Shown here in pieces: positions 31,408 to 57,877 of a stretch of DNA of 64,000 nt. The position numbers were made by a program, and so were the translations under genes. The notes under the pieces are model-generated. The model had not been told where the DNA came from. It ran no database searches and saw only the letters and a program-made list of their open reading frames with translations. Source of the DNA: Streptomyces sp. NBC_00091 (GTDB taxonomy: Bacteria; Actinomycetota; Actinomycetes; Streptomycetales; Streptomycetaceae); NCBI RefSeq assembly GCF_026343185.1, contig NZ_JAPEMA010000001.1:5890001-5954000 (forward strand), read 5' to 3'. How positions within the stretch are numbered: position 1 is the stretch's first letter; each line of letters starts with the position of its first letter.

Positions 31408-32583
31408 TCAGGACCGGGCGAGAGTCAAGTCGTGACAGGATTCCTCGATCCAGCCGAGGGGGACCCCGCTGGGCAGAGCGTCGTCACGCAAGTCGGTTGT
31501 CAGCGCGTCCCAGTTGTCATAGCCGTGGGCCTTCGCTATCGAGTCCCTGACCCTGGTCTCATGCGGAGGTGTCACCTCCGTTCTGCTCGTCTTGTGATCC
31601 TTCAGCCGGTGAACCGCATGCCACAGCATCACTTCCGTCTCGAACTGCCTGAAATGATGAATCTTGTCCATCAGGTTTGCGGACAGTGACGGAATGTCCA
31701 GGAAGAGGCGCGCGAGAGCTGGCTCGACCGAGGAATTTCGGGACAGCTTCGAATCGCTCCCGGTGTTCAGTCCTGCGAAATCGAGCTGTCCGGCCAGCAG
31801 GAACCGGATGTATTTCTGATACCGGCCGGTTCCGAAGATGAACGGAGGGAGTGACAGGTCGAGTTCTTCACGGCTGTGGCCGAGAAGCGGGTCGTGCGAG
31901 GCGTATCGGGGCCCTTGGCTGAATCGGCGGTCGTTTCCATCGGCAGGTGCCCCGTCGGGCAGGAGCGAAAGAAAGCGAACAGCCCTCAGTGCGTCCACCC
32001 TCTTGATGTCGACGGAGGCTGCGACTTCACCTATCACGCCACTCGGGTCGTCGATCCCGGCTTTCTTGAACAGAAGCCGCCAGACCCGGTCGGGATAGTA
32101 CGATTCGGCGGCGACCCGGTGAAGCTCCACACCCTGGGACCGGGTGATCAGCTTGAGACCGTACAGCTTTCTGATCGCCGCACGGATATTGACCAGGGCG
32201 ACGCTCACCGCCGAGTGGTCGTCGTCGGGATCCGTCGCGACCACCACGGGGTCGTCCGAATCGAAGAGGCCGGACCGGTACATCCTGTAGACGGCTCCGA
32301 CACCGTGGACGCCGACGGGCCAGCATTCCGCGGCCCGTATGGCCCCCATACTGGACGCCCCGACGATCTGAGCGCCGTCGCGAGCCACCTCGACGACCTC
32401 TCGCGGTGACACCGGGAGCACCTGCGAAAACGATCCGTCGATGATGAGGATCCGGGAGCTTCCGCTTTCTCTGGCCCGGTAGACGTCGCCGCGTTTCGCG
32501 GGGGGAAGGACGTGCGCCTGCGGCATAAGGGCCCGTGCCTCGCCCGGCGGCAGGGACGGCCCGGTGAATATGGTGGTTCTCAT
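31408..32583 (-). CDS. TfuA-like protein, partner of YcaO in thioamide formation
   Basis: 391 residues. The N-terminal 160 residues are a TfuA domain: IFTGPSLPPGEARAL, HVLPPAKRGDVYRA, ILIIDGSFSQVLPVSPREVVE, and GASSMGAIRAAECWPVGVHG with GVGAVYRMYRSGLF. Family knowledge: TfuA works with a YcaO to install thioamides in peptide backbones (thioviridamide-type RiPPs, McrA). The extra C-terminal region of about 230 residues has no recognised domain. The start lies three bases after the ycaO stop, so the two are cotranscribed. This is the last gene of the minus-strand operon. Confidence 0.88.
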   Translation of the reverse strand: MRTTIFTGPSLPPGEARALMPQAHVLPPAKRGDVYRARESGSSRILIIDGSFSQVLPVSPREVVEVARDGAQIVGASSMGAIRAAECWPVGVHGVGAVYRMYRSGLFDSDDPVVVATDPDDDHSAVSVALVNIRAAIRKLYGLKLITRSQGVELHRVAAESYYPDRVWRLLFKKAGIDDPSGVIGEVAASVDIKRVDALRAVRFLSLLPDGAPADGNDRRFSQGPRYASHDPLLGHSREELDLSLPPFIFGTGRYQKYIRFLLAGQLDFAGLNTGSDSKLSRNSSVEPALARLFLDIPSLSANLMDKIHHFRQFETEVMLWHAVHRLKDHKTSRTEVTPPHETRVRDSIAKAHGYDNWDALTTDLRDDALPSGVPLGWIEESCHDLTLARS

Positions 32584-32586
32584 GGC

Positions 32587-33834
32587 TCAGATCACCGATT
32601 CCAGCAGGCGGAGGGTAGGGGTGCGCGAACTCTCACCGTAGGGAGACGCGAGGCCCGGAATCAGGACACGAACCACCGGCACGCCGAGATCCTCGCGGGT
32701 GAGTTCTGTCACCAGGCACTTTTCGTGTCCTGCGTCCCGCAGCCGGCCGACGACCGTGTGTATGTTCTGCAGGATGCTGCCGCTGCCGTCCTTGGCCTGC
32801 GGGAACGCCAGGGAGCCGGGGTTCCGGTAAAGAGAGTCGATCCGCTTCAGCTCGGCCGGCCTGCGCCTGGCGCGCCCGGTCTCGAACACCTCTCGCGCGC
32901 CCGTGGCGAAGCTGGCGTGACCTTGGCACGCCTCGGTGAGAGCGCGAAGCAGCGCCCGTTCGGGCTGGAGGTCGGCCCCGTACCCGGGGAAGTAGGTCAC
33001 CTTGCCCTCCTGCCCGAAGTAGCCGTCGTCGAAAAGGACGACCCGGATGACCGGAACGTCGATCACGTTGGTCAGATCCTGTATCCGGACAACCAGACCC
33101 TGACCGGTCAGCGCGTCGATGAACTCCTTCGCGGTTCCGGCTGGAACCGACTCCGGGGATATGACCCTCAAAGGTCGACGAGGAGAGAAAAGCGGGTCGT
33201 GGTGAGCGGAGTAAAACGCTTCCTCCGACACCGCGTCGCGCTCGACAAGCTCACAGACCGCGTGGAGGACCGCCTCTGAATACGTATTCCCGGAGGCGAG
33301 CCCGTTGGTCTCGATCCGCGCCGTCATGCCTTCCGTGGAGGGATTGAGGACGAGGTCGGTCGGTACCAGATGATGGCCCCCCTGCGCCAGGTCGTACGCC
33401 CCCGTCCAGGAGAAAACGGCGTCGGGCCGGTACGTCGTGTCCTGCGGCAGGCTGAAGTCCTCCGGGTCGACCGCAGCGGCGGGAGCGAGTTCCTTGTAGG
33501 AACCCCTGACGATCCGGAGGGCCGGAATTTCCTCGGCCGAGACTCGCTCGATCGCCTCCATGACGGCGCTGAGCTTCGCCGCGATCGGCGTCGCCCCCTT
33601 TCCCGCGCTCACCGTCAGGTCTTTGGCCAGAGGAGTCACGGCCGACCACACGGGGGAGCTGATGTAATCCAGGGGGGTGGTGTCGTACACGCGCGTGACG
33701 GGGACGCGAGGCAGCAGTGGTTTCAGGGAGTCCCACGTCTCCTTGAAACTTCTGGCGTGTCCGGCCTTCGTGCTTTCCGCATCAGGCTGAAAGCTGTCCG
33801 GGCGAAGGGCTGTCAGGCTGTCCGGTTTGACCAT
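32587..33834 (-). CDS. YcaO-domain protein, predicted peptide thioamidation or cyclodehydration enzyme
   Basis: 415 residues. The YcaO ATP-binding motifs are complete: SAGKGATPIAAKLSAVMEAIER, then ASGNTYSEAVLHAVCELVERDA, and the later ALTEACQGH. YcaO enzymes phosphorylate backbone amide oxygens. With a TfuA partner they usually install sulfur (thioamide). No E1-like or C-protein cyclodehydratase partner is nearby, and the C-terminus lacks the proline-rich tail of azoline-forming YcaOs. Both facts favour thioamidation. The probable substrate is the peptide encoded at 47343. Confidence 0.92.
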   Translation of the reverse strand: MVKPDSLTALRPDSFQPDAESTKAGHARSFKETWDSLKPLLPRVPVTRVYDTTPLDYISSPVWSAVTPLAKDLTVSAGKGATPIAAKLSAVMEAIERVSAEEIPALRIVRGSYKELAPAAAVDPEDFSLPQDTTYRPDAVFSWTGAYDLAQGGHHLVPTDLVLNPSTEGMTARIETNGLASGNTYSEAVLHAVCELVERDAVSEEAFYSAHHDPLFSPRRPLRVISPESVPAGTAKEFIDALTGQGLVVRIQDLTNVIDVPVIRVVLFDDGYFGQEGKVTYFPGYGADLQPERALLRALTEACQGHASFATGAREVFETGRARRRPAELKRIDSLYRNPGSLAFPQAKDGSGSILQNIHTVVGRLRDAGHEKCLVTELTREDLGVPVVRVLIPGLASPYGESSRTPTLRLLESVI

Positions 33835-34016
33835 GATCGTGATGCCTTATCTGGAAGCGGGGATCGATGGGAACGCGGACCGCCGCGCGTCGCTGCGCTT
33901 CAGGAGCCGGCGGAGCGGGCCGGAGAGGGGCGACGGTCGCCGGTCCACGCGGCCCTGCCGGCGCTCGTCACGGCACAGGGACCGCGACGGCCCGGTCCGT
34001 GCCCCTGCGGCCTGCC

Positions 34017-35271: not shown

Positions 35272-35958
35272 TTACAGGAGAGATCGGTCGGCGAGCAGAT
35301 AGCTAGTCAGCTCCTGTCGCGCTTCTGCCGACTGCGGCACGGCCGCATACGTCGTGGTGATCTGCCGCCGCTTGTCGGCACCGCCGAACGACGCATGGTA
35401 GGAGTGCGGATCGAAGACGATGAGGTCACCGGGGGAGGAGTCGACGGTGAAGGCCGGCACCTCGGCGGGCCGCATCCCGAGGCGACGCAGCGGGTTCTCC
35501 ATCTCCGCGGCGAACGAGTCCCAGCTCCCGCCTCTGCGGTGGGTGCCGGGAATGATCCGCAGCGCTCCGGTGTCGCCGTCGAGCGGCTCCAGATACTGGA
35601 CGATCTTGAGGAGCCGGAGAGCGCGGTGGTTGCCGTCCCGGTGCCAGTAGGTGGCACCGTTGTAGCGGACTCCGTCGCCGCCGACATAGACGACGTCCGT
35701 GCCCAGCAGCCTACGTGCCACCCGAGGACACCGGTCGTCGGCCAGGAGCACCTTCTGGAGCACCGCGCTGCGCTCGGCGATCCGGGCGACGCCCGCACGC
35801 CCCTGCCGGCCGACCTGCGGGAAGTTCTCGAAGACGTCTTCGAAGGCGTCGGCGACGGCCGCCACGACGTCGTTCTGCACGCCGCGCAGGTGAAGGAATC
35901 CGAACGTCCTGAAGCGGGTGACCTCGGCGTCGGTCACCGACAAAGAGGTGAGTCTCAT
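35272..35958 (-). CDS. Phytanoyl-CoA dioxygenase (PhyH) family Fe(II)/2OG enzyme, copy 1
   Basis: 228 residues. The metal triad is visible as His106 and Asp108 in TYWHRDGN and His188 in SYHASFGG, with an Arg near 197 for 2-oxoglutarate (GADKRRQI). PhyH enzymes hydroxylate or desaturate small molecules and carrier- or peptide-bound residues. The start overlaps the stop of the second PhyH gene (ATGA). The two proteins share layout but are clearly diverged, so this is an old duplication or separate recruitment. Confidence 0.9.
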   Translation of the reverse strand: MRLTSLSVTDAEVTRFRTFGFLHLRGVQNDVVAAVADAFEDVFENFPQVGRQGRAGVARIAERSAVLQKVLLADDRCPRVARRLLGTDVVYVGGDGVRYNGATYWHRDGNHRALRLLKIVQYLEPLDGDTGALRIIPGTHRRGGSWDSFAAEMENPLRRLGMRPAEVPAFTVDSSPGDLIVFDPHSYHASFGGADKRRQITTTYAAVPQSAEARQELTSYLLADRSLL

Positions 35959-36638
35959 CCGATTGACACCGATCCGGAGACGTAGCGGTTGAGGAAGTAG
36001 CGGCGCGTGTCGCGCTGCTCGGTCTCGGTCACCGGGTCACCGACACAGTTGAACGCCAGCTGCCGTCGTATGCCGCCGTGCCATGCCGAGTGCAGGACGT
36101 TCGTGTCGAAGACGATGGCGTCGCCGGGCTGGGACTCGACGACCACCGCCGGAACGTCGCCACCGGTGAGACCGAGGTCCTCCCTGTGCCTGATGACGTG
36201 CTGGGTCGGTTCCCCGAGCCAGCCGTTGTCGGCTCGATGCGAACCGGGAAGGAAGCGCAGGGCACCCGTGTCGTGCGCGGTGGTGTCCAGGTACAGAGCG
36301 AAACGCAGGAACGGCGTGGTGTAGAAACCGTCCGAGTGCCAGTACGAGTCGCCGACGAGCGCGTTGGCATCGCTGGTGATGACCTGGTGGTTGCGTTCGA
36401 AGAACGCCCCGCAGATCGCGCCCACCCACGCCGATCCGGAGATCAGCCCCAGCTCGGGCATCTCGTTGAGGGCGTCGAACCTGGTGACCCTCTCGTTCGG
36501 CGCACCGTCCGCCGGCAGGTCGATCAGCCGGCCGAAAGCACGCTGCAGTTCCTCCACGGTGTCCGCGGCGGCTCCCCGGAGGTGGGCGAATCCGAACACC
36601 CGCAGCTGCTGCGCGACCTCCGCCTCATCGAGTGACAT
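35955..36638 (-). CDS. Phytanoyl-CoA dioxygenase (PhyH) family Fe(II)/2OG enzyme, copy 2
   Basis: 227 residues from the ATG at 36638. His101 and Asp103 (SYWHSDGF), His183 (NVLHSAWHGG) and the Arg pair at about 191 form the expected active site. The start lies inside the end of the upstream aldo/keto reductase gene (14-base overlap), and the end overlaps the next PhyH gene. This indicates one cotranscribed set of tailoring enzymes. The substrate is unknown. Confidence 0.9.
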   Translation of the reverse strand: MSLDEAEVAQQLRVFGFAHLRGAAADTVEELQRAFGRLIDLPADGAPNERVTRFDALNEMPELGLISGSAWVGAICGAFFERNHQVITSDANALVGDSYWHSDGFYTTPFLRFALYLDTTAHDTGALRFLPGSHRADNGWLGEPTQHVIRHREDLGLTGGDVPAVVVESQPGDAIVFDTNVLHSAWHGGIRRQLAFNCVGDPVTETEQRDTRRYFLNRYVSGSVSIG

Positions 36639-37434
36639 GGGACCGCCCGGGTGCGGAGTGCCGAGCAGCGGACGTGAGCCGGGCCGGCCCCGCCTCGTAG
36701 TCATCCAGCTGCTCCTTGGTCCGAGGGCCGATGACCACGGCTTCGGGGCTGTAGATCTCGTGAATCTCGGAGATCCTGGCGGCGATCGCCTCCGCCCTGC
36801 GCTCGGGCGGTACCGCCCGCAGCCGAGAGCCGCCCGAGAAGAGACTGCGGACCACGAGACGGTAGTCGGCGAGGAGGCGCGTCACGTTCGTGTCCTGCGG
36901 ATCCAGCTGGTCCGCCTCGCACATGAGCACGCTGCCGGCGGGCAGCCTGCCGGCGATCTGAGGCAGACTCACGTCCGGCAGGAGCACACTGACGCCCACC
37001 AGATCCGCCTGCCCCGTCTGTGAGCAGTGCCTCGCGAACCCGGCGAAGTCGATGTCCGACAGCCGCCTCGGCTCCGGATTGTGCACGAAGGCGACCTCGA
37101 CGTGGTCGCGCCCGAGCCGCTTCAGGCTTCCCTCCAGCGACTTGGCCATTCCTTCCAGGCTGTAGTCCAGGGTGGGCAGGGGAGTGGTGGTGTCGATCCC
37201 GACCTTGGTCCAGACCGACGCGTCGCGGGGAAGGTGCGCGCCGAGGTCCTCCTCCGCTCTCCCGCGGGCATACACGGGCGAGGTGTCGAACGTGGTGAAG
37301 CCCTGAGCGATCGCGCCCTCGACGAACTCCCGGCCCTCGTCCGCGTCGCGGCCCAGCACCATCAGGCCGTTGAAGGACCCCGAGCAGCGCATGGTGCCGA
37401 TCACCACGGACGGCTGATCCTGCATCGTGTTCAT
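36625..37434 (-). CDS. Aldo/keto reductase family protein
   Basis: About 269 residues. Recognisable parts are VVIGTMRCSGSFNGL, FTTFDTSPVYARGRAEEDLG (the Asp and Tyr of the catalytic tetrad), KVGIDTTTPLP and LKRLGRDHVEVAFVHNPEP, then the C-terminal AVVIGPRTKEQLDDY cofactor region. The Lys in WTKVG is present. I used ATG 37434; a TTG at 37440 closer to GGAAGG is possible. It is the only reductase in the cluster and may reduce a carbonyl made by a dioxygenase, P450 or radical SAM enzyme. Confidence 0.85.
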   Translation of the reverse strand: MNTMQDQPSVVIGTMRCSGSFNGLMVLGRDADEGREFVEGAIAQGFTTFDTSPVYARGRAEEDLGAHLPRDASVWTKVGIDTTTPLPTLDYSLEGMAKSLEGSLKRLGRDHVEVAFVHNPEPRRLSDIDFAGFARHCSQTGQADLVGVSVLLPDVSLPQIAGRLPAGSVLMCEADQLDPQDTNVTRLLADYRLVVRSLFSGGSRLRAVPPERRAEAIAARISEIHEIYSPEAVVIGPRTKEQLDDYEAGPARLTSAARHSAPGRSHVTR

Positions 37435-37441
37435 GGACAAC

Positions 37442-38302
37442 TCACCCTTCCTGGGATTCCGAACGGCAGATCGCCATGCAGGCCAGACCGGTGGTCGGTG
37501 GTTCGCAGAACGACTGCTCGAGCGCTTCGCGGATCTCCTGCCGTGTCGCGAAGACCGACACCTGCTGAGAGCTGTCGTAGGGGCAGCGGCGCAGGAAGCC
37601 GTCCGCGGACAGGTACAGCCGCGCGGACTGGCAGGACCGGACGACCGGGCCGCGCAGCCACTGGTGGTAGTCCGACACCACTGTCCTCAACTGCTCCGAC
37701 ATGCCGAAGAACGTGTCGATCAACGCCAGGTCGCGCTTGAGGTGGGGATTCTCGAAACGGAACGTCGACGACGGCAGCAGCGGGCTGACCTCCACCGGGA
37801 CATCGGCCGTCTCGACCACCGAGACGATGGCCTTCAGGTCGGCTTCGTCCAGCTCGTATGCGGTGACATGCAGGCTCGCCCGACGGTGTCCCAACGCCTC
37901 GAAGACCTTCGGCGTCGAGGAGATCGTCCGGCCGGTGCGGCCGATCTCGTCCGCTCTACGGCTGTCGGCGGAGACGGTGACGTGACTGAGCATGCCCGCG
38001 ACGCCGGCGATGGCATCGAGTCGCGGGCCGGTCCTGGCGGCGGTTACCACCGAGGTGCGGAAGCCGAACTGGAGTGCGATACGCACGAGTTGACGGAACT
38101 CCGGGTGGTCGGTCGGCTCGCCGCCGGACAAGCACAGTTCGTCCACGCCGAGTTCGTGGAGCCGCGACAGTGCCCGGGCGTAGGTGCTGAGGCTCAGGAC
38201 GTCGCGTCCGACATCGGCCCGAAAGCAGAACCGGCAGTTCACTTCGCAGTTGTCGGCGGTCGAGACGAGCACTCCTCGGAGTGCTCCGAGGCTGTCGGTC
38301 AC
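37442..38302 (-). CDS. Radical SAM protein
   Basis: 286 residues from a GTG that overlaps the upstream radical SAM gene (GTGA). The 4Fe-4S cluster motif is Cys19, Cys23 and Cys26 in NCEVNCRFCFRAD. LCLSGGEPTDHPEF is the SAM-binding GGE motif. Three C-terminal cysteines (SCQSARLYLSADGFLRRCPYD and later LACMAICRSE) suggest an auxiliary cluster. No function-specific family is recognised. Likely roles are peptide modification (epimerisation, crosslink, methylation) or making a precursor for the product. Confidence 0.9.
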   Translation of the reverse strand: MTDSLGALRGVLVSTADNCEVNCRFCFRADVGRDVLSLSTYARALSRLHELGVDELCLSGGEPTDHPEFRQLVRIALQFGFRTSVVTAARTGPRLDAIAGVAGMLSHVTVSADSRRADEIGRTGRTISSTPKVFEALGHRRASLHVTAYELDEADLKAIVSVVETADVPVEVSPLLPSSTFRFENPHLKRDLALIDTFFGMSEQLRTVVSDYHQWLRGPVVRSCQSARLYLSADGFLRRCPYDSSQQVSVFATRQEIREALEQSFCEPPTTGLACMAICRSESQEG

Positions 38303-39706: not shown

Positions 39707-40057
39707 TTAGTCTTCTTGCGTGATATTCGCGTCCCTCAGGACACCCTGAACGATCTCGGTGTAGTGCTTCTTGAGATGCTCGGTGTTCTCGGACGTCGCA
39801 CCGTCGGCGAGGACGATGATGCCGGGCAGCGACGGGTTGGGCGCCATGAGGACGATGCCCGGCGGGTCAAGGCTGATCGCCATGACGGCGTCCTCGACCG
39901 GCACCCACTCGATCCGCTCCTTGACGGCGTCCATCACGCCGACCTGCTTGGCCTTGAAGTCTTCGCGCTCGCCGAACCACACGCCCGACTTACCGCGCGA
40001 CCCCACGGCGTCGGCGTAGATGAGGTGGTTGTCCTTCTGTTCGCGAGGTTTGGGCAT
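39707..40057 (-). CDS. Unrecognised 116-aa protein, first gene of the tailoring operon
   Basis: 116 residues with an excellent ribosome site (AGGAGG, 8 bases before ATG). It is soluble, has no cysteine, no double-glycine and no signal peptide. The centre is beta-strand-like (VMAISLDPPGIVLMAPNPSLPGIIVLAD) and the C-terminus helical (SENTEHLKKHYTEIVQGVLRD). I do not recognise a family. Its position, strong translation start and the hairpin after it allow three readings: a second peptide substrate, a leader-recognition or scaffold partner for the radical SAM proteins, or a carrier on which a small molecule is built. Confidence 0.75.
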   Translation of the reverse strand: MPKPREQKDNHLIYADAVGSRGKSGVWFGEREDFKAKQVGVMDAVKERIEWVPVEDAVMAISLDPPGIVLMAPNPSLPGIIVLADGATSENTEHLKKHYTEIVQGVLRDANITQED

Positions 40058-40307: not shown

Positions 40308-43331
<3,024 letters not shown>

Positions 43332-43521
43332 TCATCACCATGGTCACCAGCCCACCGTGGGGAGCGGTTCACGCTTGGATCGATCACCTGTGCGCTGGTG
43401 GCCAGCCGACGGCGGTCGGCGAGCAATCAGCCTATCAGCCAAGGCTGTTCGTCCTCGAAAATGCGTATACAACGTGAGCCGCCGGGATTGCGGGGCAGGG
43501 GAGACCCGCTCCGGGGAGGAC

Positions 43522-47342: not shown

Positions 47343-47444
47343 ATGGAAAACTTCGAGGACATCGACATTTCCGACCTGTCGGAAGAGGAGCTGGACGACA
47401 TCGTCGGCGGCCAGTTCGGGATTTCCCCCACCTGCGTCATCTGA
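47343..47444 (+). CDS. RiPP precursor peptide, double-glycine leader, core QFGISPTCVI
   Basis: 33 residues. The leader (residues 1-23) is strongly acidic and ends in LSEEELDDIVGG, a classic double-glycine site for C39 peptidases. The core is ten residues: Gln-Phe-Gly-Ile-Ser-Pro-Thr-Cys-Val-Ile. It contains one Ser, Thr and Cys each, a Pro, and five hydrophobic positions. A purine-rich AGAGAGAAG lies before the ATG. It is directly followed by a hairpin and then by the C39-peptidase ABC transporter gene. Likely changes are thioamidation by YcaO-TfuA and hydroxylation or radical SAM chemistry. No known RiPP with this core is recognised. Confidence 0.88.
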   Translation: MENFEDIDISDLSEEELDDIVGGQFGISPTCVI

Positions 47445-47500: not shown

Positions 47501-47569
47501 GCCGACGGCTCACGTCCGGACGTCTTGTCGCGGGCGGACAGGCCAGTGACTCACAACGGGAGGGGACTT

Positions 47570-49855: not shown

Positions 49856-51171
49856 CTGCCCCACAGGCTGGTACCCCGTTCCCCCTGACCTACGAGCAGG
49901 AGTGGTTCCACACCAAGACCCTCTCCAGCGGCTGGTCCCACAAGAACACTCAGCTCGCGTTCGAGATCCTGGGCGGCCTCGATACGGACGCCCTCGCTGC
50001 GGCCGTACGCGCCTTCGTGGTCCGGCACGACGCCCTGCAGCTCCAGATGGATCCGGTGCCGGGCCCGCACCCCCTGCAGTGGACCCGGGGCATCGAGGCC
50101 GAGGAGGAAGTCGTCCGACGGGTGAAGGTGAAGGCCGCCTCGCCCGCACAGTTCTCCCACTACGCTTCGGCCCTGCTGTCCCGCGACTGCGTCACCCCGT
50201 GGTCGTACGGCACACAACGGCCGTTCGTCATCAGGCTGCTGCGCTACGACGAGAACCACCACGCGCTGCTGGCCACCTTCCAGAACCTCGTCTTCGACGG
50301 CCGGGCCCATCACCTCTTCGGGCATGAGGTCTGGCGCGACTACCAGACCCTGCGCGACGGCGGGTCCCCGCCGGACCCGGCCCCCTCGTTCGCCGACGCG
50401 GCGGTCCGGCAGCGGGAGCGGACGAGCGAGCGGCTACGCGAGCAGGCGCAGGCGAACTGGCGAGAACGCCTGGCCTTCATGACCCGCGTCTCCTGGCCCC
50501 GTACCGGCCCCGCCGGGGCCGACCCTGCGGAAGGAGGCATGGTGAGCGCGGAACTGCCGGCCGCGACGGTCACGGTGCTGCGTGGTCTGTGCGCCGAGTT
50601 CCGCTTCACCGTCCTGCAGTCGGCGGTCGGGCTGTTCGTCACCGCACTGGCCGCTCGAACCGGCATGTCCGAAGTGGGACTGTGGACCTCGATGGACTCG
50701 CGTGCGTCCCGGGACATGGACGTGGTGGGCATGTTCGCCGGCTCCTGCCCACTGACCCTGCGCGACGCCGGCGCCGGCGCCTTCTCCGTGCGGACACAGG
50801 TGCGTGATCAACTGCTCAACGGGCTCCGGCACCAGAGGCTCGACGCCGAGGACCTCACCGCGCTGACCCGGGAGGCGGAGGAGACCGGCGGCGCACGCGT
50901 CAGCCGCGACATCTACGTCAACCTGCGCCGGTTCGAAGGGAACTCCGCGGTCGCGGACGACATCGGCGGTCTGCGGATCACGGCTGACGCCTACCCGCTG
51001 CACCGGATCACCTTTCGTGACACCTTCGCACTTCACCTCCGGTGCACCGAGTTCCGCGACCGCCTGTGCATCGACCTCCGCTACGACGGGCACCGAGCCG
51101 ACCGCCCGCTGGCACGGTCGGTCCTGGAGGACATGCTCGCCGGTCTGGCGGCCACCGTCCCCGCCGGATGA
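49843..51171 (+). CDS. Stand-alone condensation-domain protein with altered active site
   Basis: 442 residues from a GTG inside the transporter's last codons (GGAG five bases before). The fold is an NRPS condensation domain (FPLTYEQEWFHTKTL at the start, FTVLQSAVGLFVTALAARTG and VVGMFAGSCPLTL later). The catalytic HHxxxDG reads QNLVFDG (residues 147-153): both histidines are replaced while Asp and Gly remain. It may use another mechanism, act as an acyl transferase with a changed base, or be structural. The neighbours (carrier protein and two adenylating enzymes) suggest it transfers a carrier-bound acyl or aminoacyl group to the peptide. Confidence 0.85.
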   Translation: MPGLTAPQAGTPFPLTYEQEWFHTKTLSSGWSHKNTQLAFEILGGLDTDALAAAVRAFVVRHDALQLQMDPVPGPHPLQWTRGIEAEEEVVRRVKVKAASPAQFSHYASALLSRDCVTPWSYGTQRPFVIRLLRYDENHHALLATFQNLVFDGRAHHLFGHEVWRDYQTLRDGGSPPDPAPSFADAAVRQRERTSERLREQAQANWRERLAFMTRVSWPRTGPAGADPAEGGMVSAELPAATVTVLRGLCAEFRFTVLQSAVGLFVTALAARTGMSEVGLWTSMDSRASRDMDVVGMFAGSCPLTLRDAGAGAFSVRTQVRDQLLNGLRHQRLDAEDLTALTREAEETGGARVSRDIYVNLRRFEGNSAVADDIGGLRITADAYPLHRITFRDTFALHLRCTEFRDRLCIDLRYDGHRADRPLARSVLEDMLAGLAATVPAG

Positions 51172-51249: not shown

Positions 51250-51498
51250 ATGTCCGACACGCCGATTGACGAGGTACTGAGCGCCGTGAGCGAGGTGTTC
51301 GGCAGGCCGGCCGTGCCCGAGGACGATTTCTTCGCCCTCGGAGGCGACTCCATCACCGCGGTCGAACTGAGCCTCCGTCTGGAGGAGAGCCTGGGTGTCG
51401 AGGTCGATGTCGAACTGGTCGTCAGCCTCCCCGACTTCGCGGCACTCGCCGCCGCGCTCGCGCAGCCCTCTCCCGCCTCGCCGACAGCCAAGCACTGA
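51250..51498 (+). CDS. Acyl/peptidyl carrier protein
   Basis: 82 residues. The phosphopantetheine site is Ser34 in LGGDSITAVEL, with DDFFALGG before it, as in peptidyl carrier proteins. It is acidic and helical, of standard length. It lies between the condensation protein and the adenylation enzyme and is the only free carrier in the cluster. No phosphopantetheinyl transferase is nearby, so a housekeeping one is needed. Confidence 0.93.
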   Translation: MSDTPIDEVLSAVSEVFGRPAVPEDDFFALGGDSITAVELSLRLEESLGVEVDVELVVSLPDFAALAAALAQPSPASPTAKH

Positions 51499-51504
51499 GG
51501 AATC

Positions 51505-52917
51505 ATGAAGCCTTATCTCTGGGACCCCTGGGCCACCGCGCGGACCCACCCCGACCGCGTGGCCGTGATCGCCGACGGCGAGCAGAGCACCTACGGCGAT
51601 CTCACCGGTCGCGCGGACGCCCTGGCCCGGGGGCTGCGCGCCCACGGGATCCCGGACGGCGCGGTCGTGTCGACCGACATCCCCACCGGACCGGCCTTCT
51701 TCGCCCTGGCCCTGGCCGCGCTGCGACACGGCTTCGGACTCTTTCCCATCGACCGTGAGCTGCTCGGGATTCCCATGGGACCGTCCCTGCTCGCCTCGGT
51801 GTCCACCGCCGCGCACATCAGTGCGCAGCCCTGGGCCGACGGCCCCGCCCTGCCCTGCCCGGTCGTGACGGGCACGCAGCTGACGGCCCGGGCGGACGGC
51901 CCCGGCACGCCTGCGACGCCGCCGGCCGCGGGCCGCCTCGTGTTCGCCACCTCCGGCACCACCGGACTGCCGCAGGCCGTGGCGCGGACACGTCCACGCA
52001 GGCCGTACCGCGGGGTCGCGGTCGTCGAACGCTACGGCGCCGGAGCCGGCCGGGGCCCGCATCTGATGGCCAACCCCACCTACCACTTGGGCACTCTCGG
52101 CCCCGCCCTGTACGCGCTGCAGGCGGGCAGCACGGTCGTCGTCCAGCGAACCTGGTCCTGCGACGCCTTCACGGAACTGGCGGACCGTCACCGTGCGGAC
52201 AGCGTCATGCTCAGCCCCGACCGCCTGACCGACCTCGTCGAGGCCGGTGCGGCACCGCGCCACCCCTTCCAGGTCGTCTTCCACGGCGGAGCCGCCTGCC
52301 CACCCGGGGTCAAGCGCGCGGCCATCGACCTGTTCGGGCCGGTCCTGCACGAGTACTACGGCACGTCCCACGGTGTCATCACCGAGATCACGACGGCGGA
52401 GTGGCTGGCCAGGCCCGGATCGGTCGGACGGCCCCTGCCGGGGATCCGGGTCGAGATCTCGCGGGAGGGCCGGCCCGTGCCCGCGGGCGAGACCGGGGAC
52501 ATAGACATCCTGCCGCGGGCGGCCGACCGGGCTCCGTCCGACACCGGCGTGCTGAAGACCGGGGACGTGGGCCATCTCGACGACGAGGGATATCTGTTCG
52601 TCCTCGGCCGGGCCGAGACCCCGCGGGAGATCCGGATGGCGCGGCTCGAGCACGACATCCGGTTGCTGCCCGGAGTCACCGACGCCGCCGCCCTCGACGG
52701 CGCCGGCGACGTTCCGGTGTGCTTCGTGGAACACGGTCACGGTGCCGACTTCCAGGACCCGGTGCCCGCCATCGAGGCCACGGCGGAACAACTGGACCTG
52801 CCCTCCCCGCGCGTCGTGCTCGCGGTTTCGGGCTCCCTGCCCCGTACGCCCAGCGGCAAGCTGAGGCGGGCCGATCTCGGCGTCCTGGCCCGGAGCGCTC
52901 CCCATGGTTCCCGGTAG
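51505..52917 (+). CDS. Adenylation-domain AMP-ligase
   Basis: 470 residues, slightly short for an adenylation enzyme. Core motifs are A3 FATSGTTGLPQAV (residues 147-159, usual Lys replaced by Gln), A5 HEYYGTSHG, A7 LKTGDVGHLDDEGYLFVLGR and A10 RTPSGKLRR with the catalytic Lys. It probably activates an amino acid or carboxylic acid and loads it on the carrier protein encoded six bases upstream. The substrate cannot be read from the sequence. Confidence 0.88.
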   Translation: MKPYLWDPWATARTHPDRVAVIADGEQSTYGDLTGRADALARGLRAHGIPDGAVVSTDIPTGPAFFALALAALRHGFGLFPIDRELLGIPMGPSLLASVSTAAHISAQPWADGPALPCPVVTGTQLTARADGPGTPATPPAAGRLVFATSGTTGLPQAVARTRPRRPYRGVAVVERYGAGAGRGPHLMANPTYHLGTLGPALYALQAGSTVVVQRTWSCDAFTELADRHRADSVMLSPDRLTDLVEAGAAPRHPFQVVFHGGAACPPGVKRAAIDLFGPVLHEYYGTSHGVITEITTAEWLARPGSVGRPLPGIRVEISREGRPVPAGETGDIDILPRAADRAPSDTGVLKTGDVGHLDDEGYLFVLGRAETPREIRMARLEHDIRLLPGVTDAAALDGAGDVPVCFVEHGHGADFQDPVPAIEATAEQLDLPSPRVVLAVSGSLPRTPSGKLRRADLGVLARSAPHGSR

Positions 52918-54649
52918 CGGAGGACCAGCCCACGACTCCGCCACAGCCACCGGATGGCTCCGGCACCACGCCCGGCACCGGCCGGACGCCATCGCCCTGA
53001 CCAACTGGGACGAAGGCGAGATCCGGGGCCGTACGACCTTCGGGGAACTGGACCGGCTGGTGGACACCGTCGCCCGCGCGCTGCGGGGCCTGGACGCCGA
53101 ACCCGGACACCGGGTGGTTCTGGTGCTGCCGAACGACGAGACGTTCGCCGCCGTCCTGCTCGCCGTGATCGGCACCGGACTCGTCGCGGTTCCCGCCCCG
53201 GGCCCGCGAACGATGCGCGCGGAGGCGTTCGAGCAGCGAGTGCGCGCCATCGTTCGGGACTGCTGCCCGGCTCTCGTGATCACCACGGAAGCGTGGCGGG
53301 ACACGGTGCGCTCCGCGCTGGAGGACTCCGCCACGCGGGTCCCGATCCGCACCTGGGAAGAGCTGCCGGCGGTCGCCGCCGCCCTGCCGGAGCGCGGCGG
53401 CGGGCCCGACGCACGGGTGAGCCCGCGAACACCCGCCTTTCTCCAGTACACCTCCGGATCGACCGGCTCTCCCAAGGGCGTCGTCATCGATCACCGCGCC
53501 CTGCGGTCGAGTTGCCGCCAGGCGGCCGTCTGCTACCGCGAGAGCCCGGCCGACGTCGCCGTGACATGGGTGCCGCTCAGCCACGACATGGGTCTGATCA
53601 CCGGAATCTTCAGGCCGCTGTTCAGCGGATACGAGTCCGTGCTCCTGCCGACCGAGCGCTTCGCCCGCCGTCCGGCGGAATGGCTCTCCGCTCTCACCGT
53701 CTGCCGCGGCACACTGTCCAGCGCTCCCGACTTCGCGTACGACCTGTGCGCGCGCAAGACCACCGACGACGAGATGGCCACCCTGGACCTGCGTGCATGG
53801 CGGGTCGCGCGCAGCGCGGGTGAGGTGGTCCGCCCCGCCACCGCCGAGCGGTTCGCCGCCCGGTTCGCGGCAGCGGGGTTCCGGGCCGAGGTCCTGTGTC
53901 CCTCGTACGGGATGGCGGAGGCGACCCTCACGGTCGCCGCCACCACCCCCGAACTCCCGCCGCTCCGCCTCGCCGTCAGCACCGAAGCACTGCGTGCGGG
54001 CCGCGCGGTCCGCGCCGCGCGGGGAACCCCCTCCACCACCCTGCTCTCCTCGGGCGTCCCGCTGCCGGGAACCCGGGTTCGCATCGGCGACGGCCGCCAG
54101 GACCCGCACCGCGTGGGAGAGATTTACATCCGGGGCCCGCAACTCTTCAGCGGCTACTGGCGCAAGCCGGTCCGGCGATCCCACTGGCACCCCACCAGGG
54201 ACCTCGGGTTCCTCGACGGCGGCCAGCTGTTCGTCCTCGGACGGACGGACGACGTACTCGTGCACCGCGGCCGCAACTTCCACGCGGCGGACATCGCCGC
54301 GGCCTGTGCCGCCGTACCGGGCCTCAGACCGGGGCGGTGCGCCGCCTTCACCGTCGAGGGCGAGGCGGCCGGTGAACTCCTGTGCCTGGTGTCGGAAGTG
54401 ACCGGCGGCTCCGGCGCACCGTCCCCCGCGCAGGTGGCCGCCCAGGTGCGGCGCCGGCTCGCCCAGGTCCTCGACCTGTACGTCTCCGAGGTCGCCCTGC
54501 TGCCCGCCGGCGGCCTTCCTGTGACGACCAGCGGCAAGGTGCGGATCTCCGAGACGAAACGGCGCTTCGAGCGGGGCGACCTGCCCGTTCTCAGGCCCCA
54601 CGTGCCCCGGCGCACATCGTCCGAGCACAGAGAGGAACGCACGACATGA
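52904..54649 (+). CDS. Fatty-acyl-AMP ligase (FAAL)-like enzyme
   Basis: 581 residues, typical FAAL length, overlapping the previous gene by 14 bases. Diagnostic sequences are FLQYTSGSTGSPKGVVIDH, WVPLSHDMGLITGIFRPL and SSAPDFAYDLCARKTT. The last two distinguish FAAL from NRPS adenylation domains. PSYGMAEATL and the C-terminal TSGKVRISETKRRF follow. FAALs activate fatty or aryl acids as acyl-AMP and pass them to a carrier protein. It implies that the product carries an acyl group. Confidence 0.9.
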   Translation: MVPGSGGPAHDSATATGWLRHHARHRPDAIALTNWDEGEIRGRTTFGELDRLVDTVARALRGLDAEPGHRVVLVLPNDETFAAVLLAVIGTGLVAVPAPGPRTMRAEAFEQRVRAIVRDCCPALVITTEAWRDTVRSALEDSATRVPIRTWEELPAVAAALPERGGGPDARVSPRTPAFLQYTSGSTGSPKGVVIDHRALRSSCRQAAVCYRESPADVAVTWVPLSHDMGLITGIFRPLFSGYESVLLPTERFARRPAEWLSALTVCRGTLSSAPDFAYDLCARKTTDDEMATLDLRAWRVARSAGEVVRPATAERFAARFAAAGFRAEVLCPSYGMAEATLTVAATTPELPPLRLAVSTEALRAGRAVRAARGTPSTTLLSSGVPLPGTRVRIGDGRQDPHRVGEIYIRGPQLFSGYWRKPVRRSHWHPTRDLGFLDGGQLFVLGRTDDVLVHRGRNFHAADIAAACAAVPGLRPGRCAAFTVEGEAAGELLCLVSEVTGGSGAPSPAQVAAQVRRRLAQVLDLYVSEVALLPAGGLPVTTSGKVRISETKRRFERGDLPVLRPHVPRRTSSEHREERTT

Positions 54650-55581
54650 CCATTGCGCACTCCACGACACTGTCCCGGTGGGTCGGCGACCCAGTGGCCT
54701 TCGCCGCCTACCACTGGCGCCGCCGTCCCGGTGTCTTCACTCCCGACGGCTCCCTCGTCAGTCCCTTCACGCCGGCCGACGTGGACGACGCCCTCGCCAG
54801 CGGCTTCCTGCACGAGCCCTACCTGGAGATGACCAGCGCCGAGGGTCCCCTGCCCGCCGACACCTACTTCTCGGCACGTTCGGTCCGAGGCGTCTCCCAT
54901 CCGGGGTTCGCCGACCAGAAGAAGATACGGGGGCTGATCGAGCAGGGCGCGACCCTGCTCATGCACCGGGTCGACCAGTGGCACCGCCCCACCCGCGATC
55001 TGCTGGCCCGTCTGTCGGCCGAACTCCAGCGGCCGGTGGAGGCGTTCTGCTTCGTCACCCCGTCCGGCGCCCAGGGAGCTCCACTGCATCGCGACGACGC
55101 CGATGTGCTCGTTCTCCAACTGGCTGGCAGCAAGGACTGGCGTGTCTACGAGGGACCGGCGAACGGTGAATGGCGCGAGGGGAGTGCGGAAGGGGAGAAG
55201 CCGGCGGAGGTACTGCGCGCCACCGTGCACGCCGGGGACGTCCTGTACATCCCACGCGCCTTCGCCCATGAGGCAGTCGGGAGCGGCGGCCTGTCCGTGC
55301 ACCTGTCGCTGACGATCCGTGAGGTCCACAAGGGCGATCTGTTCCGCAGCCTCCAGAAGCTCACGGGCAAGGCGATGAACGTCGAAGCGCGCCCGTTGGA
55401 CGACGAAGCCGTCCTTGCCGCCGCCACCGCCATGCTCGAGCACGTGAGCAAGGCACTGGCCGGTCTGACCCCTCAGGACCTGGTGGACCACGCGAGGCGG
55501 ACCAGGCTTGCCGCCCTGCCCGATCCCGGTGCACCGGTCTCGCTCGGTGACCTGGCCGCCGGGTACGCCGATCCGCGGTGA
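54646..55581 (+). CDS. JmjC/cupin_4-type Fe(II)/2OG hydroxylase
   Basis: 311 residues; ATG overlaps the FAAL stop (ATGA). The layout resembles bacterial ROXA/YcfD hydroxylases: GAPLHRDDADVLVLQLAGSKDWRVYEG, with His148 and Asp150 as metal ligands, and RAFAHEAVGSGG with distal His208, preceded by GDVLYIP. Known relatives hydroxylate Arg or His of ribosomal proteins. Here the substrate is probably the cluster peptide or its acyl part. It is a further 2OG oxygenase besides the two PhyH proteins. Confidence 0.88.
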   Translation: MTIAHSTTLSRWVGDPVAFAAYHWRRRPGVFTPDGSLVSPFTPADVDDALASGFLHEPYLEMTSAEGPLPADTYFSARSVRGVSHPGFADQKKIRGLIEQGATLLMHRVDQWHRPTRDLLARLSAELQRPVEAFCFVTPSGAQGAPLHRDDADVLVLQLAGSKDWRVYEGPANGEWREGSAEGEKPAEVLRATVHAGDVLYIPRAFAHEAVGSGGLSVHLSLTIREVHKGDLFRSLQKLTGKAMNVEARPLDDEAVLAAATAMLEHVSKALAGLTPQDLVDHARRTRLAALPDPGAPVSLGDLAAGYADPR

Positions 55582-55902
55582 TTCCGCGCGTCCCGACGGC
55601 GGAGGCCGTACCGGTCGCCATCGGGCGTCCGGAGCCCTGCTGACACCGGGCACCGGTCCGAGGACCCCGGCCGGCCCGTCGTCGTCGCGGCTCGGGGACC
55701 GCAGAGTTCCCGGGTGCGGGCGGCTCCCGCGCTCATCGATTCCGCACTGATCGTGCGCTGATCGCCGTGAGCCAGTATGGCTGTAACCGAACAGGTCGGG
55801 CGCGTGCAGCGCTCCATGCCTGGCGGCGCCTACGACAGGTCTGCCTTGCGAGTCGCCGTCGATCGGGCCGGCAGGGTGCAGTCGAAAGACACAGGAGCAC
55901 GA

Positions 55903-56508
55903 ATGGGTCATTCCGCGCTGGCAACGGACAGAGAGTTCTTGGTTTTCCTCGACCGCAAGCACCAAATGCAGTACGGGAGTCCGGAATTCTTCCGGCAGTT
56001 CGGCGGGTCGGGCGAGGAACTGTACGGAAAGCCGTTCAGCTACCTCATAGAATCGGACCTCCGCGAGGCTCTTGACCGAGGCCTGAACCAGCTGCTCGTC
56101 GGAGATCGGGACCAGTTCAGTCACCGCATAGCACTGCGGCGACGGTCTGCCACACCGCTCAGTGCCGTGCTCACGGCGACAGCCCTGTGGGGTAGTTCGC
56201 CGAACAGGGCCGTGGCCATACAGCTCTTCCACCCCACGGACCCCGCCGGGCCGAAGACCGTCAGGGAGAGTCCGGTCATCGGTGAGATGGCGGCGAAAAT
56301 CCTCGAAGGAACCGCGGCAGGACTGACATCAGAATTTCTGGCCTCACGTTTATTTATCAGCCCCAAGACCGTCGATTACCACATCTCACGCATGCTCCGG
56401 CAGTTCGGCATGCCGAATCGGGTGGCGCTGATCGCGCTCGCCTACTCGACGGGAATACTGCAAATCAACTCGTGGCCGCCCCGGGTCGCCGATGAGTTCA
56501 TAAAATAG
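55903..56508 (+). CDS. PAS-LuxR transcriptional regulator
   Basis: 201 residues from the ATG at 55903 with AGGAG seven bases upstream; longer in-frame starts have no site. A PAS domain covers about 10-115 (EFLVFLDRKHQMQYGSPEFFRQFGGSGEELYGKPF). The LuxR helix-turn-helix is EGTAAGLTSEFLASRLFISPKTVDYHISRMLRQF. PAS-LuxR regulators such as PimM control Streptomyces antibiotic clusters. It sits with a small SARP gene at the right end of the cluster and is a likely pathway regulator. Confidence 0.9.
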   Translation: MGHSALATDREFLVFLDRKHQMQYGSPEFFRQFGGSGEELYGKPFSYLIESDLREALDRGLNQLLVGDRDQFSHRIALRRRSATPLSAVLTATALWGSSPNRAVAIQLFHPTDPAGPKTVRESPVIGEMAAKILEGTAAGLTSEFLASRLFISPKTVDYHISRMLRQFGMPNRVALIALAYSTGILQINSWPPRVADEFIK

Positions 56509-56613
56509 GAATCCGGATGAGTCTATGCCCCGCCCCTCGTCTGACATGCGGCCCGTCATCAGGACGCGTCGCTATTTCCCCGGATGGTCCTTGTTTCTCG
56601 TAAGGGGGTAGAA

Positions 56614-57480
56614 GTGGAGCTCATGCGCAGAGCGTGGCAGGGCGGCGGAGCGTCCCGCTCGGACGCCGACCTGGACGCGGGGGTCGAGACCGGCCCCACT
56701 CAGCTGAATCTCTTAGGGCCGCTCGAGATCCTCGTGTCCGGTGTCACCGTTTCCCCGGGAGGAGCGAAGCCGCAGATCCTCTTCGCCTACCTGTGTCTCC
56801 ATGCCAACCGGCACGTCTCGGTCGACAACATCATCGAGGCCGTCTGGGGGGAGACGCCACCTTCGAGCGCCAAGAAGAACATCCAACTGTACGTGAGCCG
56901 CCTGCGCCGGCAGTTCGCCTACGCGACCGGCGTCCGTCTGATCACGACCAGCGACGGGTACCAGCTCACGGCCGAGTCCGATCAGGTTGACCTGGTGCGG
57001 TGCCGGCAACTGTGGCAGCTCGGCCAGGAAAGCCTCCACAACGGTGCGCCCAAGGAGGCCGGAAGGCTGCTGCGCGAGGCGATCCGGCTGTGGCGGGGTA
57101 AGCCTCTGAGCGGCCTCACCCACACTCTGGTCATGCAGGCCGAGGCGGCCGGGCTGGAACAGTTCCGGCTCGGACTGCTGATGAAGTACTTCCAGGCGCA
57201 GCTCGCGGACGGTCAGCACTTCGAGATAATTCCCGAACTCCTCGCCACGGTCACTGATCATCCGCACCAGGAACGACTGCGCGCGGATCTCATGATGGCC
57301 CTGTGGCGGTCCGGCCAACGCCACGCCGCGCTGGCCACCTATCGCGAGGCGCACCAGCTGCTCGCCGACGACCTGGGAATCTTCCCCGGACGGCAGTTGC
57401 ATGCCCTGCACCAGGCGATCCTGGCCGACGACGCGGAGATCATGGGTGGCCTGACGACGGACCGGAGCGTCGCTCCATGA
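56614..57480 (+). CDS. Small SARP family transcriptional activator
   Basis: 288 residues from a GTG five bases after GGGGG; an ATG nine bases further is possible. The winged-helix DNA-binding part (GGAKPQILFAYLCLHANRHVSVDNIIEAVWG, NIQLYVSRLRRQF) is followed by a full BTAD domain. There is no ATPase or TPR, as in ActII-ORF4 and DnrI. Together with the PAS-LuxR gene and the large SARP it gives the cluster three dedicated regulators. Confidence 0.93.
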   Translation: MELMRRAWQGGGASRSDADLDAGVETGPTQLNLLGPLEILVSGVTVSPGGAKPQILFAYLCLHANRHVSVDNIIEAVWGETPPSSAKKNIQLYVSRLRRQFAYATGVRLITTSDGYQLTAESDQVDLVRCRQLWQLGQESLHNGAPKEAGRLLREAIRLWRGKPLSGLTHTLVMQAEAAGLEQFRLGLLMKYFQAQLADGQHFEIIPELLATVTDHPHQERLRADLMMALWRSGQRHAALATYREAHQLLADDLGIFPGRQLHALHQAILADDAEIMGGLTTDRSVAP

Positions 57481-57658
57481 CGTCGTTCACGGCCCGTGGG
57501 AAGTCGCTTTCGTCGCGGAGGCGGCCGTCGCGGCATTGTGCACAGCAGCCACCGATTCACTGCCCGACCTGCACATTGATCACCTGTTGATCACGGTCTG
57601 GCAGCATGGCCAATCGCTGTGGGCCCCATGGCACGCGGCGCAGAACTCACCAGAACGG

Positions 57659-57877
57659 ATGCAGAAAATGAAGCGATACAAAGCCGGCGTTCCGCTGCGT
57701 CAGTCCCTCTCGGTCGCCGTCCTGACGCTGCCGTTCATCCTGGCCGCCGTCATTGGCGGTTCCTCCGTCGGCGGAGTGGCGAACCACCCGTCGTCCGGCA
57801 CGGTGAACCACCACGACCGGGCCGCGGAGCTGGAGTGGAACGGCACGGGGTCGGACTACCACAGGCCCCTCTCGTGA
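57659..57877 (+). CDS. Small membrane or secreted peptide, unknown function
   Basis: 72 residues from ATG 57659, or 69 from ATG 57668. A basic N-terminus (MKRYKAGVPLRQ) precedes a hydrophobic stretch SLSVAVLTLPFILAAVIGG, then a polar, His- and Asp-containing tail (VNHHDRAAELEWNG). It could be a signal-anchor peptide or an exported peptide cleaved near GG-SSVGG. No clear ribosome site. It is followed by a terminator and closes the cluster. Confidence 0.5.
   Translation: MQKMKRYKAGVPLRQSLSVAVLTLPFILAAVIGGSSVGGVANHPSSGTVNHHDRAAELEWNGTGSDYHRPLS

Follow-up and report, generated by a model that had tools for sequence, protein, structure and literature searches.

Positions 31408 to 57877 of the window, the 64,000-nucleotide stretch of Streptomyces sp. 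NBC_00091 analyzed here (contig NZ_JAPEMA010000001.1, positions 5,890,001 to 5,954,000), combine genes for a short double-glycine precursor peptide, YcaO and TfuA proteins, two radical SAM enzymes, several oxidases, a stand-alone acylation set and a fused glycyl-tRNA synthetase (GlyQS). The question raised by this locus is what these genes make, and whether they make one product. In a preliminary description they were taken as one hybrid cluster for a single ribosomally synthesized and post-translationally modified peptide (RiPP). Comparison with relatives suggests instead that two separable modules jointly make a lipidated, exported ribosomal peptide with a predicted warhead blocking glycyl-tRNA synthetase (GlyRS), GlyQS serving as self-protection. 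This reading is held tentatively, with close to even confidence.

Two gene groups that occur apart

Pfam and NCBIfam profile searches of the open reading frames (ORFs) of the window gave 20 supported genes and one doubtful one (u113) in the region, which replaces the earlier count of 19. On the minus strand, from upstream to downstream, lie GlyQS, an AfsR/SARP-type regulator, a small protein named here u116, the radical SAM proteins rSAM1 and rSAM2, an aldo/keto reductase (AKR), the dioxygenases PhyH1 and PhyH2, a cytochrome P450, YcaO and TfuA. On the plus strand the precursor is followed by a C39-ABC exporter, a condensation (C) domain, a peptidyl/acyl carrier protein (PCP), an AMP-forming ligase, a ligase resembling fatty acyl-AMP ligases (FAAL), a JmjC protein, a PAS-LuxR regulator, a small SARP regulator and u113. 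The enzymes, the exporter and the three regulators listed before were confirmed by these profiles; an ORF of about 72 residues listed with them (43344-43577) was dropped. It is conserved at 51-56 % in relatives, against 95-98 % for its neighbours GlyQS and the AfsR-type regulator, and is therefore probably not a gene.

A profile of rSAM1 built from 16 sequences found 54 loci in a collection holding one genome per species, which were mapped by tblastn of the window proteins. The clade of the window has six members: the window itself, genome G001, S. hyaluromycini (L001, G062/G311), S. shenzhenensis (L002, L110, L112, L163), S. pseudovenezuelae (L003, G012) and S. filipinensis (L004, G065). The same gene set, for which a search elsewhere had been proposed, recurs with every part in the same order in G001, S. 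hyaluromycini and S. shenzhenensis, in the last split over two contigs. Identity to the window genes is 90-98 % in these three, with 77-78 % for u113 and 88-94 % for short matches at contig or fetch ends. Such recurrence is far beyond chance.

The two remaining members hold parts of the set. S. pseudovenezuelae retains GlyQS, the rSAM cassette, the C39-C-PCP-A genes (A being the adenylation domain of the AMP-forming ligase) and a partial JmjC gene, and its precursor has a different core (MENNQINLTELSDQDLDDLFGG-SATVPYGCCIVLDGC); no FAAL match adjoins its C39-C-PCP-A set. The 40 kb examined in S. filipinensis harbour GlyQS, the rSAM-AKR-PhyH-PhyH-P450 cassette and a small SARP gene, without C39 exporter, non-ribosomal peptide synthetase (NRPS) set or YcaO/TfuA, and a precursor was not found there (best E 2.9). 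The minus-strand core with GlyQS therefore stands alone in this species, since it occurs without the carrier genes. Beside this module (L084:8947-14726) a Lant_dehydr_N protein and an S9 peptidase are found in place of the carrier genes.

The converse was seen as well. The C domain (E<=1e-40) was found in 5 of 392 Streptomyces genomes (G001, G311, G012, G024 and G237), and G024 and G237 are without a u116 hit among the 392 genomes searched. Both harbour a carrier set consisting of a precursor, C39 exporter (55 and 60 % identity), C domain (46 %), PCP (50 and 51 %), A domain (55 and 56 %) and FAAL (49 %), with a JmjC gene in G237, and no rSAM, u116 or YcaO/TfuA match was found in the stretches of 35 and 32 kb. 

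The window precursor (47343-47444, plus strand) is a peptide of 33 residues starting at 47343, with a leader ending in GG, MENFEDIDISDLSEEELDDIVGG, followed by the core QFGISPTCVI; relatives are found in L001, L060, L110, G012, G024 and G237. In the three close clusters two positions are changed. In the three diverged clusters (G012, G024 and G237) the leader is kept and the core is changed, the precursors of G024 and G237, MENNAIDITNLTDEELDDIVGG-FTVITPNCSAA and MENNQVDITALTDEELDDIVGG-ALAVPANCI, sharing the common leader. The cores vary, with a Cys kept in all four distinct ones. In the window and in these three diverged clusters the GG leader is accompanied by a neighbouring C39-ABC gene (47525-49855, plus strand; PF03412 E 3.5e-28, PF00005 E 4.6e-34). 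The genes that follow on the plus strand encode the stand-alone C domain (49843-51171; PF00668 E 3.7e-30), the PCP with a GGDS motif (51250-51498; PF00550 E 1.2e-14), the AMP-forming, acyl-CoA-ligase-like ligase (51505-52917; PF00501 E 3.7e-36, best NCBIfam match an acyl-CoA synthetase, below cut-off), the FAAL-like ligase (52904-54649; PF00501 E 5.1e-64, best NCBIfam match fatty-acid--AMP ligase with 336 bits, below cut-off) and the JmjC-type hydroxylase, whose start was chosen by us (54667-55581; PF08007 E 1.2e-18). The FAAL-like ligase and the PCP occur together in the window, G024 and G237, with NCBIfam scores below cut-offs. The condensation motif HHxxxDG is not kept; it reads QNLVFDG in the window and G237, QNLVFDS in G012 and NNVFFDG in G024. 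As first described, a ribosomal peptide with a GG leader is kept together with a dedicated C39 exporter and the C-PCP-A-FAAL proteins, which is borne out by the block recurring in G024 and G237.

This separate occurrence bears directly on the idea of one hybrid RiPP, in which the rSAM enzymes, YcaO-TfuA, the oxidases and the FAAL/NRPS proteins all act on QFGISPTCVI to give an acylated, thioamidated and oxidised decapeptide. A single gene order kept in four close clusters would fit it, as would the assignment of rSAM1 to the SPASM peptide maturases. However, within the stretches read, S. filipinensis has the rSAM cassette without the peptide, NRPS set or YcaO, G024 and G237 have the precursor set without rSAM, u116 or YcaO, and comparison of four precursors with the sister loci described below gave no match better than E 0.12. 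We regard one product worked on by all enzymes as quite improbable. What had been named as speaking against it was that the two strands belong to separate, known clusters. Since the halves occur apart in relatives, half of this is what was found: the strands are separable, but neither half was found described.

The YcaO-TfuA pair lies in the same cluster about 13 kb from the precursor. The YcaO protein (32587-33834, minus strand) matches PF02624 (E 9.8e-73), with MJ1094 (6pe3, E 1.5e-30) as nearest solved relative, and the TfuA-like protein (31408-32583, minus strand), 94-97 % identical in the close clusters, matches PF07812 (E 3.7e-34) and scores 163 bits with NCBIfam ThioGly_TfuA_rel, below the cut-off of 235. 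The pair is found in four of the six clade members, which makes thioamidation seem accessory to the cluster. The S. pseudovenezuelae genome gave no good YcaO match (best E 3.6e-4, 34 %); the genome-wide search, for which YcaO was the query, gave in S. filipinensis about 30 % over part of the protein and one 52-residue piece at 46 %. YcaO homologues at 60-89 % identity were found, that of S. cadmiisoli being the one placed in its gene context. Among plasmids 247 records matched YcaO, one at more than 60 % identity, whereas no plasmid relatives of rSAM1 or the C domain were found at E<=1e-20. That one record is a plasmid of S. cadmiisoli (L113:14995-17695), on which YcaO (62.7 %) is followed by a TfuA match limited to the first 31 residues and then by a cupin-domain gene; this pair looks decayed.

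Extra synthetases near both modules

GlyQS (43604-46675, minus strand) is by sequence a full-length fused alpha-beta enzyme of the bacterial type (NF011499 1425 bits, cut-off 1244), with 7xjy as nearest solved structure, and is likely a copy for producer self-resistance. Each of the six clade members has it. The S. shenzhenensis copy is on a separate contig, whose end falls within the same SARP gene. The dimeric GlyRS (TIGR00389) was found in 15/15 genomes tested, six of which carry a u116 module with Gly or Ala at position 19 (see below) together with GlyQS, so that its presence beside GlyQS is read from relatives of the window. PF02092 was detected in 16 of 295 Streptomyces genomes, four of them carriers of Gly19-type u116 (G001, G006, G012 and G311) and the other 12 without such a module. 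With a chance association of GlyQS in mind, nine of these 12 loci were examined (L101-L109). Their GlyQS is 57-58 % identical to that of the window, and the surrounding stretches gave neither u116 nor rSAM matches; one of the nine genomes (G110) has an Asp19-type module elsewhere. These nine form a second class of fused GlyQS, eight of them in two groups sharing neighbour genes, with a dimeric GlyRS in the six tested.

An additional aminoacyl-tRNA synthetase (aaRS) gene, or one like it, was also found near the carrier set when this occurs on its own. In G237 a full SerRS gene lies about 10 kb on (serS 348, cut-off 302); its product is 41 % identical to the other copy of the genome and 39-41 % to the best SerRS in five other genomes. 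In G024 a protein resembling AsnRS and asparagine synthetase A is encoded within 10 kb, as is a peptidase of family S66 whose best 11 solved matches are all MccF entries (E 1.8e-56). Microcin C is a Trojan-horse inhibitor of AspRS to which MccF confers immunity. An aaRS gene or an aaRS-like/MccF-like gene is thus near the carrier set in all four distinct settings (window clade, G012, G237 and G024), although four is few. The synthetase, first described as a foreign gene, is not incidental to the cluster, an extra aaRS or aaRS-like gene accompanying both halves.

These findings have to be set against the explanation that the locus makes two independent products under shared regulation, one a small inhibitor of GlyRS made by the u116 module, the other a lipidated peptide of its own, which might be a bacteriocin or a surfactant. 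Each module indeed occurs alone. An unrelated lipopeptide would not, however, need the extra aaRS or aaRS-like/MccF-like gene seen in 4/4 carrier-set settings, few as these are, and two independent products are considered unlikely.

More on the role of the extra synthetase comes from a sister family. Of the rSAM1 loci, 38/50 (L006-L041 except L028, and L045-L047) combine u116, rSAM1 and rSAM2 with F2, which resembles cupins, and F4, an aaRS of class II, without AKR, PhyH1, GlyQS or YcaO match; L043, cut by a contig end, lacks F4 only. F4 of L007 scores 394.6 with TIGR00458, aspartate--tRNA(Asn) ligase (cut-off 368.4), and 482.8 with PRK05159 (cut-off 353), and its nearest solved structures are archaeal AspRS (3nel E 2.8e-102). 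The F4 matches of L023 and L031 reach just 38-40 % and lie on the far side of the module. Among 392 Streptomyces genomes u116 was found in 23, 18 with Asp19 and 5 with Gly19, and F4 (E<=1e-60) in 35; the two draws of 392, made by the same request, were taken as identical genomes. F4 is present in 18/18 Asp19 genomes, 3.05-3.84 kb from u116, in 0/5 Gly19 genomes and in 17/374 genomes without Asp19. As the sampled genomes are related and this was not corrected for, the Fisher p of 9e-22 is a description and no independent test. All 18 Asp19 genomes also have a bacterial-type AspRS over cut-off (in G034 with an incomplete frame). A second aaRS beside the housekeeping one was therefore seen in relatives as GlyQS with dimeric GlyRS, F4 with bacterial AspRS, and two SerRS in G237.

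The conserved DNA upstream of F4 fits the T-box leader family RF00230 in L008 (E 5.8e-20, 88.7 bits) and L007 (E 3.3e-13, 62.4 bits), both scores being below the Rfam gathering score of 93, and a thresholded Rfam scan of 7 loci did not list the F4-leader T-boxes. The T-box core GGTGGxACCGCG is present in all 36 aligned F4 upstream regions, from which L023 and L031 were left out beforehand, and so is GAA-GAC (23 by pattern, 13 by eye). The specifier position of a T-box is the codon after GAA. GAC, at this specifier-like place in the F4 leaders, is an Asp codon; the Rfam alignment of the L007 leader has a gap at the specifier-like position. Because T-boxes respond to uncharged tRNA, the F4 AspRS is expected to go up when Asp charging fails, as fits a self-protection enzyme. 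The sister u116-rSAM1-rSAM2-cupin-AspRS cluster is predicted to be a pathway for an AspRS inhibitor.

The T-box also bears on another role for GlyQS, that of a biosynthetic supplier of Gly-tRNA for tRNA-dependent aminoacyl transfer. According to PMC12945691, aaRS copies are used in this way, AcmD/AcmF in ascamycin and SbzA being the examples, and a Lant_dehydr_N protein is indeed near the S. filipinensis module. However, the window ORFs scanned gave no transferase of the GNAT/Fem or LanB type, the sister AspRS has a T-box, which indicates that charging is sensed, and AcmD also acts in self-resistance according to the same paper. This role is judged improbable.

The u116 protein and the neighbouring radical SAM enzymes

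In 50 rSAM1 loci (L001-L050, four of them from the window clade and L042/L049 near-duplicates), u116 is present in 49, a relative of rSAM2 in 49, and both above threshold in 48. The window u116 (39707-40057, minus strand, 116 residues, TTAGGAGG upstream), a putative substrate or scaffold protein, has no Pfam or NCBIfam match, and at least 51 relatives, those listed, are without a Pfam domain and, where named, are called hypothetical or uncharacterised. Downstream of it, also on the minus strand, rSAM1 (38299-39594) matches PF04055 (E 4.6e-16) and, below cut-off, the PapB family as best NCBIfam hit. A CxxxCxxC region (C98-C105) and the residues C383, C386, C392 and C413, invariant in 16 sequences, give it the build of a SPASM-type peptide maturase. 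rSAM2 (37442-38449, start uncertain, its ORF overlapping rSAM1) matches PF04055 (E 2.1e-10), has a CEVNCRFC motif and five C-terminal cysteines as well, and is closest in NCBIfam to viperin and then MoaA, all below cut-offs. In S. lavendulae (L020:9620-11284) u116 and rSAM1 are in one frame, an ORF of 554 residues. Modelled by way of this natural fusion, rSAM1 has as nearest structures 5why, which we take to be CteB, TigE, anSME and ChlB.

In an alignment of 46 u116 sequences the residues R5, K8, H11, L12, A15, D16, S20, K23, G25 and W27 are invariant. In the AlphaFold model residues 1-30 have low confidence (block means 45-56), and an a-b-b-b-b-a domain with a helix from about residue 25 is well predicted; the highly conserved stretch H11-W27 thus falls in the low-confidence part. 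Position 19 is occupied by G (23 of the 46 sequences), D (17), A (5) or Q (1), between V18 (43/46) and S20 (46/46). In the near-duplicate L042/L049 loci, which are verrucomicrobial, it is Pro, and the trio relative of L042 (L042:8327-12118) lies near a carbamoyltransferase and an ABC ATPase. L005 and L048 have a Gly19-type module beside NRPS genes (in L005 AMP-binding, PP-binding and part of a C domain), L005 also encoding a GNAT protein. No leader-like hidden short precursor was found in the sister loci by comparison of short ORFs (top 12 groups, six members each), and the conserved short frames near the sister AspRS overlap its T-box leader.

Two roles of u116 are conceivable. It could be a partner or recognition protein of rSAM1 and no substrate, in which case the module would convert a small molecule into a free inhibitor resembling an amino acid. 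The conserved folded domain (N74, P75, L77, P78 and G79), as well as the viperin and MoaA matches of rSAM2 below cut-offs, would agree with such a role. Against it stand the highly conserved stretch H11-W27 in the low-confidence part, which is what a tail that is modified or recognised would show, and the switching of position 19 among G, D, A and Q between nearly fixed neighbours. The partner role is a possibility that we think somewhat unlikely.

The stronger form of the substrate role would make u116 a ribosomal scaffold whose tail becomes the warhead. Residue 19 (A-D-x-V-[X]-S-R/K-x-K) would then program which aaRS is poisoned, Asp19 AspRS and Gly19/Ala19 GlyRS, the warheads being mounted on exchangeable, lipidated, C39-exported carriers. 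Where context is known, Asp19 loci go with AspRS and Gly19/Ala19 loci with GlyQS or with no synthetase seen, a pattern that derives mainly from one tree split. Window-like u116 sequences with Asp19 exist (P0099, P0101, P0105 and P0108), P0099 and P0105 coming from the strains NPDC006967 and NPDC053253. A genome of this kind in which the code could be tested was sought in 394 genomes of the family (13 u116 hits) and 392 of the genus (23 hits), and none was found. This code is put forward as a speculation and is more probably wrong than right by a wide measure.

Besides rSAM1 and rSAM2 the minus-strand cassette encodes the AKR (36625-37440; PF00248 E 5.9e-12), PhyH1 (35955-36704; PF05721 E 7.1e-11, HSD motif), PhyH2 (35272-35958; PF05721 E 8.2e-12, HRD motif) and the cytochrome P450 (34017-35213; PF00067 E 2.8e-12, heme loop FGRGRHACLA). 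A second P450-PhyH-PhyH copy (72-74 %) was seen near the first module of S. pseudovenezuelae (L063:5263-13369), accompanied by a regulator of the AfsR/SARP type (78 %) and a cupin of the F2 kind; transposase genes are found around it.

Of the regulators of the region, the AfsR/SARP-type protein (40308-43289, minus strand) has BTAD (E 4.8e-41), NB-ARC and TPR domains and scores 835 bits with the AfsR model, below cut-off. The PAS-LuxR protein (55777-56508, plus strand; GerE E 5.2e-11, and PAS) has a relative at 63-67 % in S. pseudovenezuelae, and the small SARP (56584-57480, plus strand; BTAD E 1e-37) relatives at 72 % in S. pseudovenezuelae and 55 % in S. filipinensis. The doubtful u113 (57536-57877, plus strand), without Pfam match, is found at 77-78 % in the three close clusters and at 34 % in G012. 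Just outside the cluster a 274-residue ORF (58833-59657) matches the first part of the profile of the AIPR (abortive phage infection) domain and is perhaps a remnant. The G+C content in 2-kb steps is 0.69-0.77 left of 30 kb and 0.64-0.73 across 30 to 58 kb.

A proposed pathway and its place among known systems

In the preferred reading of two modules with a joint product, the warhead module comprises u116, rSAM1, rSAM2, AKR, the two PhyH proteins and P450. The substrate of rSAM1 would be the N-terminal tail of u116, which is conserved and flexible; further tailoring would fall to rSAM2, the oxidases and the reductase, and the molecule finally set free would be a small aaRS inhibitor resembling glycine. 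The carrier module consists of the 33-residue precursor, C39 exporter, FAAL, PCP, AMP-ligase, atypical C domain and JmjC. An acyl group may be loaded by FAAL and PCP, and the C domain or a ligase may attach it to the ribosomal peptide or couple peptide and warhead; from its family C39 is predicted to cleave after Gly-Gly during export. YcaO-TfuA would add a thioamide. We infer that an aaRS-poisoning warhead module is exchangeable and is joined here to a lipidated ribosomal carrier.

Several findings weigh against this reading. Warhead and peptide could be two separate products and not joined at all. GlyQS was not found in the genomes of L005, L028 and L048, which have Gly19-type modules, in G006 it (69 %) lies about 250 kb from the module, and no T-box or other Rfam leader was detected before it in the window and S. 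filipinensis. F4 occurs without u116 in 17 genomes (three partial matches, one at 40 % identity) and is therefore not confined to the u116 pathway, and Pelomonas L044 has Asp19 but no F4-like gene within its 21 kb. The 10-kb gap before the SerRS of G237 means that this gene may be part of a different cluster, and in G024 the AsnRS-like protein reaches none of the curated cut-offs. For u116 no convincing fold match was found in the PDB (best E 0.09), and modelling of the fused L020 ORF did not place u116 with its tail in rSAM1 (block mean pLDDT 33-68). As an observation in its own right, the F4-type AspRS without u116 (G021, G115, G146 and 14 others, G007 having a second copy on another contig) is perhaps stand-alone resistance.

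Microcin C is a ribosomal peptide carrier with an aaRS-blocking warhead, and the S66 peptidase nearest to MccF in G024 recalls it. The window differs from that system in its warhead genes (two rSAM, PhyH, AKR and P450), which are unlike those of mcc, and in having a C39 exporter and a FAAL/NRPS set; its scanned ORFs gave no ThiF/MccB-type hit. In albomycin, a second aaRS in the cluster serves as self-resistance, and the SerRS of G237 resembles this arrangement. Similarly, AcmD and SbzA are aaRS copies in inhibitor clusters that act in resistance, according to PMC12945691. The carrier here differs from these in being a ribosomal peptide, likely lipidated, and not a siderophore. Among systems with a resistant aaRS no GlyRS- or AspRS-type example was found among the open-licence papers searched.

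With thioamidated RiPPs, the thioviridamide family and thiovarsolins, the cluster shares adjoining YcaO and TfuA genes and a short precursor. It differs from them in a leader of the C39 double-glycine type and in the presence of rSAM, FAAL and aaRS genes, and the YcaO-TfuA pair, in contrast to the thioviridamide family, is not kept across the cluster family (none in the G024 and G237 stretches). Lipolanthines and goadvionins are hybrids of RiPPs with fatty acyl or PKS parts and likewise have a ribosomal peptide next to acyl-loading enzymes, but the window ORFs scanned include no lanthipeptide synthetase, the C-PCP-A-FAAL proteins are stand-alone and an extra aaRS is present. rSAM1 resembles the SPASM maturases of ranthipeptides and sactipeptides (PapB, CteB) in domain build and nearest fold, but its likely partner is the 116-residue u116 and not a Cys-rich precursor. 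Of the PEARL pathway, with its LanB-type aminoacyl-tRNA ligases, the window ORFs scanned hold no LanB-type protein, one being near the S. filipinensis module. Among the open-licence papers searched, a scope in which a report could be missed, no description was found of this gene set, of the u116 family, or of radical SAM genes with a resistance gene of the GlyRS or AspRS type next to them. The locus probably encodes a new kind of Trojan-horse antibiotic, as judged from gene content and its comparison.

If so, a family of antibiotics would exist whose aaRS target can be deduced from genome sequence: GlyRS for this locus, AspRS for the sister family (18/392 Streptomyces genomes) and, from the genes near other carrier sets, SerRS or an enzyme resembling AsnRS. 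Inhibitors of GlyRS and AspRS, each with its matching resistant enzyme, would be new leads. The u116 protein would be a new partner of radical SAM enzymes with a testable one-residue code, and the T-box-controlled resistance gene would provide a search handle for more clusters of this type.

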